Translations under genes and position numbers: made by a program
Notes under the pieces: model-generated
Database searches by the model: none
What the model was told of the DNA's origin: nothing
Seen by the model: the letters and a program-made list of their open reading frames with translations, nothing else
Shown: positions 40,371 to 46,284 of the stretch, piece after piece
How positions within the stretch are numbered: position 1 is the first letter of the stretch
Layout of the letters: each line of letters begins with the position of its first letter
Source: an uncultured Pelagibacteraceae bacterium
GTDB taxonomy: Bacteria; Pseudomonadota; Alphaproteobacteria; Pelagibacterales; Pelagibacteraceae
Direction of reading: 5' to 3'
Assembly: GCA_902623395.1 (NCBI GenBank)
Contig: CACNTN010000003.1
Location: forward strand, 1-63,682
DNA: 63,682 nucleotides

Positions 40371-40835
40371 TTAATTTAGTTCAAAGATAGCATCAACTTC
40401 TACTGCAACTCCTAAAGGTAAACTGTTCACACTCACAGCTGCACGTGTATGTTCGCCTTTTTTTTCAAAGATTTTAGCTATTATATCTGATGCACCATTA
40501 ATTATTTTTGGCTGATCTTTAAAATCATCTGATGAATTAACATAACCTGTTAATTTTACACAAGATTTAACTTTATCTAAATCTCCACCACAAGCATTTT
40601 TTACATGGGCAACAATGCTTAAACCGCATCTCTCAGCAGCTTTATAACCTTTTTCTAAATCTAAATCTTTTCCAATCTTGCCAGTTATAAGTTTTGCGTT
40701 TTCATCAATAGATATTTGACCAGAAATATATAATAATTTACCAACAATTTTCGTAGCTACATAAGCTCCCACTGGTGCTTTTGGTTCAGGTAATTTTATA
40801 TTCAAACTTTTAATTTTGGTTTCTATGTCGCTCAT
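40371..40835 (-). CDS. ridA: RidA/YjgF-family enamine/imine deaminase
   Basis: RidA proteins hydrolyse reactive enamines released by PLP enzymes. The 154-residue protein is longer than the usual 128-residue forms. It has KLLYISGQISIDENAKLITGKIG, the YKAAERCGLSIVAHVKNA helix, and the GEHTRAAVSVNSLPLGVAVEVDAIF C-terminal segment, whose Arg binds the carboxylate. Its length places it in a YjgF-like subgroup seen in alphaproteobacteria. The ATG overlaps the topA stop by 4 nt. Confidence 0.88.
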   Translation of the reverse strand: MSDIETKIKSLNIKLPEPKAPVGAYVATKIVGKLLYISGQISIDENAKLITGKIGKDLDLEKGYKAAERCGLSIVAHVKNACGGDLDKVKSCVKLTGYVNSSDDFKDQPKIINGASDIIAKIFEKKGEHTRAAVSVNSLPLGVAVEVDAIFELN

Positions 40836-43399
40836 TTTCTTTTACCTTTTTTTTTAGTTTTATCGTATTCTTTTCTTTTTTCAATTAATATAAGCGCCTC
40901 TTCCATAGTAAGTTCGTTCGGATCTTTTTCTTCAGGGATAGTTGCATTTAAAGACTTGTACTTAATATAAGGACCATATTGCCCTTTCATAATTCTTACG
41001 GGTTTTTTGTCTTCAGGATGCTCTCCGAGATCTTTAATTAGCGAAGAAGAAATCCTTCCAGGTTTAGCTTCAGCAATTAATGTTATTGCTCGATTGATAC
41101 CTATAGAAAAAAGATCTTCAACATTTTCAAGTCTTGCAGATTTGTTTTCACATTTTAGATATGGACCAAATCTTCCAGAATTTAAAGTTATATCTTGCCC
41201 ATTATCAGGATGTTGGCCCAATACTCTAGGAAGAGAACATAAATATTTTGCTTTATCTAAATCAACACTGTCAACATCAATACCTTTTGGAATTGAGACA
41301 TTTTTTAGGTGTTCGTTCTCATTTTTTTTCTTTCTACCTTTTTTCTTTTTTATTTCTAATTCTTCTTTTTCTTTCTCAAATTGCAAGTAGGGACCAAATC
41401 TACCATTTTTTAAAAATATATCTTTACCTTTTTCGTTTTGACCCAGTAATTTAGGCTCTGCTAAGTTATATTGAGCTGCAGCTTTAGCTTTAGATAAAGG
41501 TCTAGTAAATTTACACTCCGGATAATTTGAACAACCTATAAAAGCTCCACCTCTAAAACTATTCTTAAGACTAAGCTCTCCATTGGAACATAACTTACAC
41601 TTTCGATCTATAGCGTCTTTATCATCCCTTTCAAAAATTAAAGCTCCTAAACTTTCATTTAATAAGTCTAATACTTCCCTAGTTCTCTTTTCTTTAACTT
41701 TTCCTACATTTTCGTAAAAATCTTTCCAAAAATTATCTAAAACTTGAACCCATTCAATTTTACCACTAGTGATTTCATCTAGTTGATTTTCTAGGTCTGC
41801 AGTGAAATTATAATCAACGTATTTAGAGAACAATTTTTCTAAAAAAGCTGAAATTAGCTTGCCTCTGTCAGTCGGATTAAACCTTTTATTAATTAATTCG
41901 ACATAATTTCTCGTTGATAATACTGAGATAATGCTAGCATAAGTAGAGGGTCTCCCTATGCCTAGTTCCTCCATCTTTTTAACTAAACTAGCCTCAGAGT
42001 ATCGTGGTGGTGGATCTGTGAAGTGTTGTTCATCATTAAGCTTAAGTATACTAATTTCCTCTCCAACTTTAACCTCAGGCAAAATATTCTTTGCATCTTC
42101 GTCAGTTTCTTGAACTTGATAAACTTTAAGAAATCCATCAAATTTTATGACTGAGCCGCTAGCTCTAAAATTTATCTTATTATCGTTTGAAGAAATAATT
42201 ATCGTATTTCTATCAAACTCTGCTGGAGTCATTTGAGACGATAAAGCTCTACTCCAAATTAATTCATAAAGTTTAAATTGATCTGCATTTACATATTTTT
42301 TGATATCAGAAGGTTTCCTACTTATATTAGTTGGTCTAATTGCTTCATGGGCTTCCTGAGCGTTCTTTGCTTTTTTTCCTGTATAACTATTTGGTGCCTC
42401 TGGTAAATATTTATCACCATAATCATCAGTAATGAATTTTCTAAAGTCATCAATTGCTTCTTTTGAAATATTAGTTCCATCAGTTCTCATATAAGTAATT
42501 AATCCAGTTGTCTCACCCTCAATATCTACACCTTGATAAAGTCGTTGTGCAATTTGCATTGTTCTGGAAGCTCCAAAACCAAATCGTCCCGAAGCAGTCT
42601 GTTGCAAGGTTGATGTTGTAAAAGGTGCTAGAGGGTTTCTTCTAAATACTTTTGTATTTACATCAGCAATTTTAAATTTTGTTTTATTGATTACATCAAC
42701 TGCATTTTGGATTTCCTCTTTATTTTTGAAAGAAAATTTTTCAATTTTTTCTCCATTAAAAAAACTTAATTTTGAAAAAATATTTTTATTATTTTTGTTT
42801 GTAAAGTCGGATGTAAGAGTCCAGTATTCTTCTGGTTTAAATAACTCTATTTCTTTTTCTCTTTCAGTAATCAATTTTAAGGCTACTGATTGAACTCTTC
42901 CTGCTGATTTTGATCCAGGTAATTTTGTCCAAAGAATTGGTGAGATATTAAATCCTACAAGATAGTCCAAAGCTCTTCGCGCTAGATAAGCTTCAACTAA
43001 AGGTAAATGAATTTCTCTTGGATTTTTAATTGCATCAAGAATTGCTTTCTTTGTGATCTCATTAAAAACGACACGTTCTAGATGTTTATCTTTGAGTAAT
43101 TTTTTTTTATCTAAAACTTCTTTAACATGCCATGCGATAGCTTCACCTTCACGATCAGGGTCTGTAGCTAAAATAATTTTATCAGAGTCTTCGGCAGCAT
43201 TTGTAATTTCCTTTAAATATTTTTTTGAAAAAGAGTCTATTTCCCATTCCATTTGAAATTTATTTTCGGGATCTACAGATCCATTCTTTGAAGGAAGATC
43301 TCTTATGTGTCCATAACTAGCTAAAACTAAATAATCTTTACCTAAATATTTATTTATTGTTTTTGCTTTTGCTGGACTTTCAACAATTACTAAATTCAT
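40832..43399 (-). CDS. topA: DNA topoisomerase I
   Basis: TopA relaxes negative supercoils. From the ATG at 43399 it has 855 residues. The TOPRIM domain starts at once (LVIVESPAKAKT) and has DPDREGEAIAWHV. The active-site tyrosine is in LITYMRTDGT. One four-cysteine zinc finger (CKLCSNGEL ... CSNYPEC) and three C-terminal repeats of the type GRFGPYL follow, as in alphaproteobacterial TopA. The frame extends upstream to TTG at 43435, but that TTG is part of a predicted TTGACA -35 box. Confidence 0.97.
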   Translation of the reverse strand: MNLVIVESPAKAKTINKYLGKDYLVLASYGHIRDLPSKNGSVDPENKFQMEWEIDSFSKKYLKEITNAAEDSDKIILATDPDREGEAIAWHVKEVLDKKKLLKDKHLERVVFNEITKKAILDAIKNPREIHLPLVEAYLARRALDYLVGFNISPILWTKLPGSKSAGRVQSVALKLITEREKEIELFKPEEYWTLTSDFTNKNNKNIFSKLSFFNGEKIEKFSFKNKEEIQNAVDVINKTKFKIADVNTKVFRRNPLAPFTTSTLQQTASGRFGFGASRTMQIAQRLYQGVDIEGETTGLITYMRTDGTNISKEAIDDFRKFITDDYGDKYLPEAPNSYTGKKAKNAQEAHEAIRPTNISRKPSDIKKYVNADQFKLYELIWSRALSSQMTPAEFDRNTIIISSNDNKINFRASGSVIKFDGFLKVYQVQETDEDAKNILPEVKVGEEISILKLNDEQHFTDPPPRYSEASLVKKMEELGIGRPSTYASIISVLSTRNYVELINKRFNPTDRGKLISAFLEKLFSKYVDYNFTADLENQLDEITSGKIEWVQVLDNFWKDFYENVGKVKEKRTREVLDLLNESLGALIFERDDKDAIDRKCKLCSNGELSLKNSFRGGAFIGCSNYPECKFTRPLSKAKAAAQYNLAEPKLLGQNEKGKDIFLKNGRFGPYLQFEKEKEELEIKKKKGRKKKNENEHLKNVSIPKGIDVDSVDLDKAKYLCSLPRVLGQHPDNGQDITLNSGRFGPYLKCENKSARLENVEDLFSIGINRAITLIAEAKPGRISSSLIKDLGEHPEDKKPVRIMKGQYGPYIKYKSLNATIPEEKDPNELTMEEALILIEKRKEYDKTKKKGKRK

Positions 43400-43405
43400 T
43401 ATTTG

Positions 43406-43435
43406 TTTATTTTCAAAATTAAACGAATTTGTCAA
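43406..43435 (-). promoter_or_regulatory. Predicted topA promoter
   Basis: On the minus strand a perfect TTGACA (43430-43435) and AATAAA (43406-43411) are 18 nt apart. The expected start is at or next to the topA ATG (43399), so the mRNA would be leaderless or nearly so. Confidence 0.4.
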
Positions 43436-44049: not shown

Positions 44050-45339
44050 TTATTTTGAGTAAACTAGTTCACCGTTAAGATAAGTCATTAAAACCTTTCC
44101 TTGAAGATTTCTATTTTCAATAGCTGTATTTTTTGATTTAGATTTCAGTTTGTCAGTATTTACTTTCCATGGAGCTTCTAAATCAAATATACAAATATCA
44201 CCATCCGACCCTTTTGCCAAAGTTCCTTTTTTTATGTTTAATATTTTAGCAGGGTTAATGGTTAAGGTTTCTATTATTTTATTAAGAGGAAGTGATTCAT
44301 TGTGATACATTTCTAATGAAAGAGGCAGAAGGGTCTCAACACCAATAGCGCCGGTAGCCGCTTGCGCATATGGCAGTCTTTTGCTTTCCTCATCTTCAGG
44401 TAAATGGTCAGAGACTATCACATCTATTAGTCCATCCTTGATCCCTTGTATTAGTGACAATCTATCTTCCTCAAGTCTAAGAGGGGGAGATAGTTTTAAG
44501 AAAGTCTTAAATTCACCAATATCATTCTCATTTAATGATAAATTATTTATGGAAACACCAACGCTAAATTTTTTACCATTATTTTTATTTTTTCTAATTA
44601 CATCTAATGATTGTTTAGATGAAATCTGATTGATATGATATCTACAAGGATACTCACTAAGCAAACTTAAATCTCTTTCGATTATTATTTTTTCAGCTAA
44701 AGCTGATACACCTTGTAGTCCAAGTCTTGTGGCTACTTCTCCATCGTTGATACAAGCATTTTTTGATAACTCATAATCTTCCGCATGTTGCATTATCAAA
44801 ACCCCAATATCAGAAGCATAATCCATAATCCTTGACATTAGCTCTGTATTTTGAATAGTTTTATTTACATCACTGAAGCCAATTATTCCTCTTCCCGAGA
44901 GTAAACCAAACTCAGTCATTAATTTACCTTCACATTGTTTGGTTATTGAAGCACAAGGAAATAGATTAACATTAGCTTTGTCTCTTCCTCTTCTAATAAT
45001 GAAATCAACCATTGAAACGTTATCGATAATGGGTTTTGTGTTAGGCATAGTTACTATAGACGTAACACCTCCAGCTAAAGCTGCTTGACTAAGAGTTCTA
45101 AAGTTTTCCTTATATTCATATCCTGGCTCACCTACAAAAGCCTTCATATCTACTAACCCTGGAATTAAAACATTTCCTTTTAAATCAACTATCTCAACTT
45201 CATTGTTAGAGTCGGGTTTTTTTACATTTTTTCCTATAGCTTTTACTTTTCCTTTTTCGTCTAATATTAAGGAGCCTTTCTCATCCATATCTTGTGATGG
45301 ATCTATAATTCTTGCATTAATAAAAATTTTTTCCTTCAT
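44050..45339 (-). CDS. pyrC: Dihydroorotase-like protein lacking zinc ligands (probably non-catalytic)
   Basis: The 429-residue protein is a type I dihydroorotase homologue by overall sequence: IPGLVD near 59-64, GGVTSIVTMPNTKPIID, LSPPLR, TGAIGVETLLPL. However, the metal motif D-x-H-x-H-x-R-x-P-G reads DMKAFVGEPG (64-73), so both histidines and the arginine are gone. The later HxxH-type segment reads YHINQIS, and the DHAPH motif reads DHLPED. I infer a structural, inactive partner of aspartate carbamoyltransferase, like PyrX/PyrC' proteins. Annotation pipelines will call it pyrC. It abuts pyrB. A catalytic dihydroorotase must lie elsewhere if pyrimidines are made de novo. Confidence 0.85.
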   Translation of the reverse strand: MKEKIFINARIIDPSQDMDEKGSLILDEKGKVKAIGKNVKKPDSNNEVEIVDLKGNVLIPGLVDMKAFVGEPGYEYKENFRTLSQAALAGGVTSIVTMPNTKPIIDNVSMVDFIIRRGRDKANVNLFPCASITKQCEGKLMTEFGLLSGRGIIGFSDVNKTIQNTELMSRIMDYASDIGVLIMQHAEDYELSKNACINDGEVATRLGLQGVSALAEKIIIERDLSLLSEYPCRYHINQISSKQSLDVIRKNKNNGKKFSVGVSINNLSLNENDIGEFKTFLKLSPPLRLEEDRLSLIQGIKDGLIDVIVSDHLPEDEESKRLPYAQAATGAIGVETLLPLSLEMYHNESLPLNKIIETLTINPAKILNIKKGTLAKGSDGDICIFDLEAPWKVNTDKLKSKSKNTAIENRNLQGKVLMTYLNGELVYSK

Positions 45340-46284
45340 TTATGTACAATACTTTTTTAAACAAGCCATTCTTACTGCTACACCTAATTCAACTTGCTCT
45401 TTAACTAAACTAACGTTTATGTCATCTGCAAGTTTTGTATCTATTTCTACCCCTCTATTCATTGGACCGGGATGCATAATCAGTGCATCTTTTTTTGCAA
45501 ATTTTAATTTTTCTGGAGTTAAACCATAAAATTCATAATATTCTCTTTTTGAAGGTAAGAATGAACCTTGCATTCTTTCATTTTGTAGTCTCAACATCAT
45601 TACAATGTCACATCCATCAAGACCTTTCTTCATATCTGTAAAAGACTTTACTCCCATTCTATCTATTGATTTTGGCATTAATGTTTTAGGAGCAATTACA
45701 TTTACTTCAGCACCCAACATATTCATTAAATAAATATTTGATCTAGCTACTCTTGAGTGAAGTATATCGCCACAAATTGCTATCTTCAGTCCTTCGATTT
45801 TACCTTTTCTATTAATTATTGTTAAAGCATCAAGTAAAGCTTGAGTAGGATGTTCTCTTCTCCCATCTCCGGCATTGATAACTGCACAATTAACTTTTTG
45901 AGATAATAAATTTGGTGCACCAGAGTCTTGATGTCTGATTACAATTAAATCTGGATGCATCGCGTTTAAAGTCATTGCAGTATCGATTAAAGTTTCACCT
46001 TTTTTAAGCGCTGAGTTATCCATATTCATGGACATTACATCTGCACCTAATCTTTTACCTGCTAGGTCGAATGAACTTTGAGTTCTTGTCGATGGTTCAA
46101 AAAATAAATTAATTTGAGTTTTTCCCCTTAAAACATCTAATTTTTTTGAGCTACTTCTATTTAATTCGATAAATTTTTTTGCTTCATCTAATATTTCTTT
46201 AGCTTCTAATATTGAAAGGTTTTGAATACCAAGAAGATGTTTGGGAGAGTTTTTAATAGCTGTATTGTTTTTCTTAACTGCCAT
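45340..46284 (-). CDS. pyrB: Aspartate carbamoyltransferase catalytic subunit
   Basis: PyrB makes N-carbamoyl-aspartate in pyrimidine synthesis. From the ATG at 46284 it has 314 residues; a TTG three codons upstream is possible but less likely. The carbamoyl-phosphate motif [19 protein letters not shown] is intact. Other conserved segments are [30 protein letters not shown] and [12 protein letters not shown]. No pyrI regulatory gene is nearby. It directly precedes the dihydroorotase-like gene, the arrangement in which the inactive partner stabilises the transcarbamoylase. Confidence 0.97.

Follow-up and report, generated by a model that had tools for sequence, protein, structure and literature searches.

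A dihydroorotase homologue lacking the alpha zinc site, encoded beside pyrB in SAR11, as a probable non-catalytic subunit of aspartate transcarbamoylase

The dihydroorotase-like subunit (pDHO) of Pseudomonas aeruginosa is reported to be inactive and dimeric, and to be required for the formation of trimers by PyrB, the aspartate transcarbamoylase (ATCase) (PMC7053772). In Sinorhizobium meliloti, disruption of smc01361, named PyrX, is described as resulting in pyrimidine auxotrophy, despite an essential PyrC being encoded elsewhere (PMC5929573). The dihydroorotase of Aquifex aeolicus is reported to bind zinc through His61, His63 and Asp153, and its activity survives the replacement of His180 and His232 by alanine (PMC3880350). 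The literature already knows the arrangement considered here as the class A2 ATCase; what is new is the SAR11 protein as a member. Literature searches for Pelagibacter with dihydroorotase, and for SAR11 with pyrimidine biosynthesis and pyrB, returned no paper joining these terms.

The window is the whole stretch of DNA analysed, 63,682 nucleotides of a contig from an uncultured Pelagibacteraceae bacterium. The features of interest are collected in Table 1. In an NCBIfam profile search, PyrX matched TIGR00857 with 360 bits, above the cut-off of 279, and NF006558 (PRK09059) with 535.6 bits, under the cut-off of 645, a threshold attained in only 2 of the 144 genomes sampled from the window's class. 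The Aquifex dihydroorotase (6gde/3d6n) spans residues 5-428 of the 429 (phmmer E 2.9e-88), and type I dihydroorotase homology covers the full length of the protein. The gene lies directly 3′ of pyrB, both being on the minus strand; plsY (Pfam G3P_acyltransf) comes next in the same direction, and then an ORF at 40832-43435 that was taken for topA by eye. At 45337-45342 the TAA stop of pyrB runs directly into the ATG start of pyrX, with no change of frame. Of the 72 SAR11 loci in which both genes were measured, 42 have this TAA/ATG junction and 12 overlap by four bases; such abutting or overlapping junctions suggest translational coupling. A same-strand PyrB match lay within the stretch fetched for 79 of the 80 SAR11 loci and for 95 of the 98 other loci of the class.

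Table 1. Features of the pyrB-pyrX locus, with positions in the window and residue numbers of the Aquifex enzyme
Feature	Position	Strand	Details
pyrX, type I dihydroorotase homologue without alpha zinc site	44050..45339	-	429 aa ORF
pyrB, aspartate carbamoyltransferase catalytic chain	45340..46284	-	NF002032 407 bits vs cut-off 263; Pfam OTCace_N and OTCace
DMKAFVGEPG, degenerate D-x-H-x-H-x-R-x-P-G (H61K, H63F, R65G)	45121..45150	-	PyrX residues 64-73
FSDVN, V at third alpha-site ligand D153	44863..44877	-	Aquifex alignment
MQHAED, H180 equivalent retained	44776..44793	-	Aquifex alignment
YHINQIS, H232 to Q, H229 retained	44620..44640	-	Aquifex alignment
SDHLPED, D305 and H306 retained, H309 to E	44392..44412	-	Aquifex alignment

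The metal site of PyrX is altered. In the alignment, Aquifex H61, H63, D153, H180, H232 and D305 correspond to K, F, V, H, Q and D, with two of the six metal positions kept (H180 and D305) and none of the three alpha-site ligands. The original prediction had placed the degenerate motif at 45121-45150 with its zinc histidines lost; the motif lies at exactly 45150-45121 of the minus strand, and the losses H61K and H63F were confirmed. It had also named two later segments as altered. For YHINQIS this is correct, as H232 is replaced by Q. For DHLPED it holds in part: H309 has become E, but the Asp near the metal, D305, is kept, as is H306. The losses it listed are real, but the list missed D153V, one of the three decisive alpha-site ligands. 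The alpha-site loss is regarded as the decisive one because the Aquifex zinc sits on His61, His63 and Asp153 and activity outlasts the two alanine replacements.

The same pattern is found throughout the SAR11 sequences compared. The set consisted of the window and 76 of 80 loci, these 80 being the best of 470 relatives; four loci (L045, L072, L073 and L079) were dropped for an incomplete match. In all 77 full-length sequences position 61 is K or R, position 63 is F, position 153 is V, G or A, and position 232 is Q, while H180, H229, D305 and H306 are retained in every one. Since the ligand losses are the same in 77/77, they are not a sequencing slip. In one of the dropped loci, from SAR11 SAG-MED05 (L045 4001-5286), the match to pyrX breaks off its reading frame near residue 376, its 1286 bases not being a multiple of three; this is either a frameshift or an assembly error.

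It had been predicted that the true dihydroorotase must be encoded elsewhere, and a separate homologue was indeed located. A search of the window's own genome (1.03 Mb in 24 contigs, about 90% complete) with the PyrX protein yielded a single strong homologue besides PyrX itself, at G000:C2:101834-103009 (E 2.9e-39). The corresponding protein, G000:C2:101744-103060 (L002 1411-2724), matches NF006559 (PRK09060) with 641 bits against a cut-off of 482. Its motifs are D-T-Q-V-H-F-R-E-P-G, the lysine of GVKLF, HSED, HVLHVT and SDHAPH. An intact H-x-H had been proposed as the mark of this second enzyme, but the homologue carries Q-x-H instead. Q replaces the first His of H-x-H in 61 of the 61 PRK09060-type loci that were looked at, of which 30 belong to the class sample and 31 to SAR11, the window's genome included. 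The Porphyromonas gingivalis homologue 2GWN shares the motif (Q-V-H), and two zincs are listed for it (PMC12524618). Of the 118 SAR11 family genomes, 102 have a match to NF006559, 100 of them above its cut-off. Judged from its family, the PRK09060-type Q-x-H protein is the probable working dihydroorotase of SAR11. No E. coli-type PyrC over its cut-off and no PyrI (TIGR00240, for which the control matched in 7 of 14 genomes) were detected in the window's own genome; these absences, of PyrI and of a third dihydroorotase, are not firm because that genome is about 90% complete. A third match to PyrX (L003, E 0.01) was dismissed; it overlaps an ORF taken for ParB by eye.

The prediction of a pseudo-dihydroorotase beside pyrB thus stands, given the lost ligands, the second homologue in the genome, the lack of a PyrI match and the description of such proteins in the literature. 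The best explanation, which we consider very probable, is that PyrX is the non-catalytic dihydroorotase-like subunit of a class A2 ATCase. In this proposal, SAR11 PyrX would have no dihydroorotase activity. Its dimers would bind PyrB and keep it in active trimers, the assembly probably being a PyrB6-PyrX6 dodecamer as in Pseudomonas and Aquifex, and carbamoyl aspartate would be cyclised by the separate PRK09060-type enzyme. AlphaFold predictions were of low confidence, both for PyrX alone (27 SAR11 sequences; mean pLDDT 51.8, pTM 0.49) and for PyrB-PyrX as one chain read through the stop (15 sequences; mean pLDDT 48.6, pTM 0.40).

The wider class shows how far the degraded site extends. In the sample of 144 genomes, which includes the window's own, NF006558 was matched in 110 (99 above 300 bits and 11 weakly) and was without a match in 34. 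Besides the window, 98 PyrX loci were fetched and aligned. Of these, 5 keep all six ligands, 7 keep five or more and 91 fewer than five, and 76 keep no alpha-site ligand. A genome was credited with a separate dihydroorotase if it matched NF006559 or TIGR00856 over the cut-off; the partial NF006559 match of G111 was counted too. By this definition 90 of the 91 genomes whose PyrX is degraded have one, versus 2 of the 7 with a kept site. Put the other way, no other dihydroorotase was found by this definition in 5/7 kept-site genomes versus 1/91 degraded (Fisher p 1.8e-6, ignoring kinship); when kinship is allowed for, the comparison comes down to two independent pairs and is not significant. The exceptions with a kept site are G136 and G026, in which PyrX is intact yet PRK09060 is present. 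A PyrB match lies within each of the kept-site loci (L108, L148, L157, L168, L169, L185 and L209). The exception with a degraded PyrX is the single-contig genome G112 (L167, L274), in which PyrX reads R-x-G/G/H/H/D, no dihydroorotase matches NF006559 or TIGR00856 over the cut-off, and the best other NF006559 match is a dihydropyrimidinase. If the catalytic site is truly kept where no other dihydroorotase exists, the loss of activity by an enzyme would become traceable, here on two independent contrasts only. In a sample of 150 genomes from the phylum, 123 were matched and 30 loci were examined, each of which also holds a pyrB match; every one of the 13 over the PRK07627 cut-off is degraded, and of the remaining 17, 16 are intact.

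The history of this loss was followed in trees. The window groups with its SAR11 relative L158 (support 100) inside a degraded clade of 20 rows, most of them with F63 and Q232. Among the kept-site loci, L108, L148, L157, L168 and L169 read H-x-H/D/H/H/D and L185 reads Q-x-H. This group is nested among degraded rows, all six in the quick tree and five in the careful tree, which was built without nine active-site blocks. In the bootstrap of the careful tree, the 43 degraded alphaproteobacterial rows formed one side of a branch in 0 of 200 trees. Many rows around the kept-site group read R-x-Q/G/H/H/D, three ligand substitutions away, and 4 of the 6 genomes of the group have no other dihydroorotase over the cut-off. 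The nesting of the intact rows could mean that a dead PyrX regained dihydroorotase activity in some alphaproteobacteria outside SAR11, but this is improbable. The AU test did not reject the degraded rows as a single clade (log-likelihood 6.58 lower, p 0.425), and the nearest neighbours of the intact rows disagree between the quick and careful trees. Among the rows compared at other active-site motifs, the intact ones keep outgroup-like residues, mostly MPNT and PHHF; in the R-x-Q/G rows these motifs read LPNT and, for the most part, PPYF. Regain in these relatives was set aside on the AU result, the unstable neighbours and the ancestral-looking motifs of the intact rows, and one early loss, with the intact rows as the oldest branch, would be the simpler history and is favoured.

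The retention of H180, H229, D305 and H306 across SAR11 suggests that some use of the old PyrX pocket is possible. It has to be considered whether PyrX, as a scaffold, also binds in its remodelled pocket an effector by which the ATCase is tuned. The former site is fixed within SAR11 at F63, H180, Q232, D305 and H306 (77/77), and among the 91 degraded rows of the class F63 is accompanied by loss of H232 in 25 of 26. This coupling is largely shared descent, because most F63 rows fall in one clade. Moreover, nucleotide inhibition in P. aeruginosa is ascribed to dissociation of the complex and not to allostery (PMC7053772). An effector site is hence given little weight beside the purely structural subunit.

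Slightly less credible still is that PyrX remains a dihydroorotase, working without metal or with an unusual metal site. Activity in the absence of conserved zinc ligands is reported for a Zur-linked PyrC paralogue, with P. aeruginosa work cited (PMC2770081), and H180, D305 and H306 persist in all SAR11 sequences. G112 likewise combines a degraded PyrX with no other dihydroorotase over the cut-off. Nonetheless, all three Aquifex alpha-site ligands are missing from PyrX, and a separate dihydroorotase accompanies the degraded protein in nearly every genome of the class sample, the match of G111 being under the NF006559 cut-off. Position 63 is occupied by F, Q, H, T, K, R, A, Y and six other residues in the 98 class loci, which is unlike a catalytic position.

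Within SAR11, PyrX is present in 109 of the 118 family genomes. At E 1e-20, 115 genomes gave a match, six of them weak (best E 1e-26 to 1e-48); these six were taken for the PRK09060 protein, and the coordinates agree for the three placed in both searches. Eight of the nine genomes lacking PyrX have no PyrB match above 32% identity: four have none at E 1e-20, and four have a 31-32% match alone, taken for ornithine carbamoyltransferase. In the ninth, G340, pyrB stops 30 bases short of the contig end. The nine absences are consistent with assembly gaps. For pairs with dS of 0.05-1, pyrX has a median pairwise dN/dS of 0.047 in SAR11 (364 pairs) and pyrB one of 0.028 (389 pairs), and no internal stop was found in any of the 77 pyrX sequences. 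By these sequence measures, pyrX is a maintained gene under purifying selection across SAR11. A decaying pseudogene, as the lost catalytic residues might suggest, is contradicted by this low dN/dS, by the frame being open in all full-length sequences and by pyrX being kept together with pyrB in small genomes, and hardly merits further consideration.

The reading of PyrX as a class A2 subunit has several consequences. It sets right a pyrC reading that misleads in an abundant group of marine bacteria, it indicates the Q-x-H enzyme as the probable working dihydroorotase in SAR11, and it points to a two-subunit ATCase kept by these genome-streamlined bacteria. The essential structural role that the original prediction assigned to the protein is, for SAR11, inferred from its conservation and from its relatives in S. 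meliloti and Pseudomonas.

Among known systems, the fungal CAD-like pseudo-DHO of Chaetomium (5NNL) is likewise a metal-free, inactive dihydroorotase-like domain beside an ATCase, but it lies within a multifunctional protein and is not a separate subunit. The Aquifex DHO-ATC (3d6n, class A1) is the best match among solved structures, covers almost all of the protein and forms a dodecamer of dihydroorotase and ATCase; its dihydroorotase, in contrast, is active and has His61, His63 and Asp153. The S. meliloti PyrX (smc01361), likened here by its description (PMC5929573), is also alphaproteobacterial, adjoins pyrB and has a separate PyrC elsewhere; the auxotrophy phenotype belongs to S. meliloti. 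For the Pseudomonas branch, the 13 phylum loci over the PRK07627 cut-off served as a stand-in, P. aeruginosa itself not having been identified in the sample. These differ from the SAR11 protein at position 61 (S, A or N) and at position 63 (R, A or S), and the 10 of the 13 placed in the tree form, with L237, a branch apart. The pDHO (PyrC′) of the Pseudomonas class A2 ATCase nevertheless offers the same arrangement as that proposed for SAR11: an inactive homologue that assembles with PyrB and is described as needed for ATCase activity (PMC7053772).
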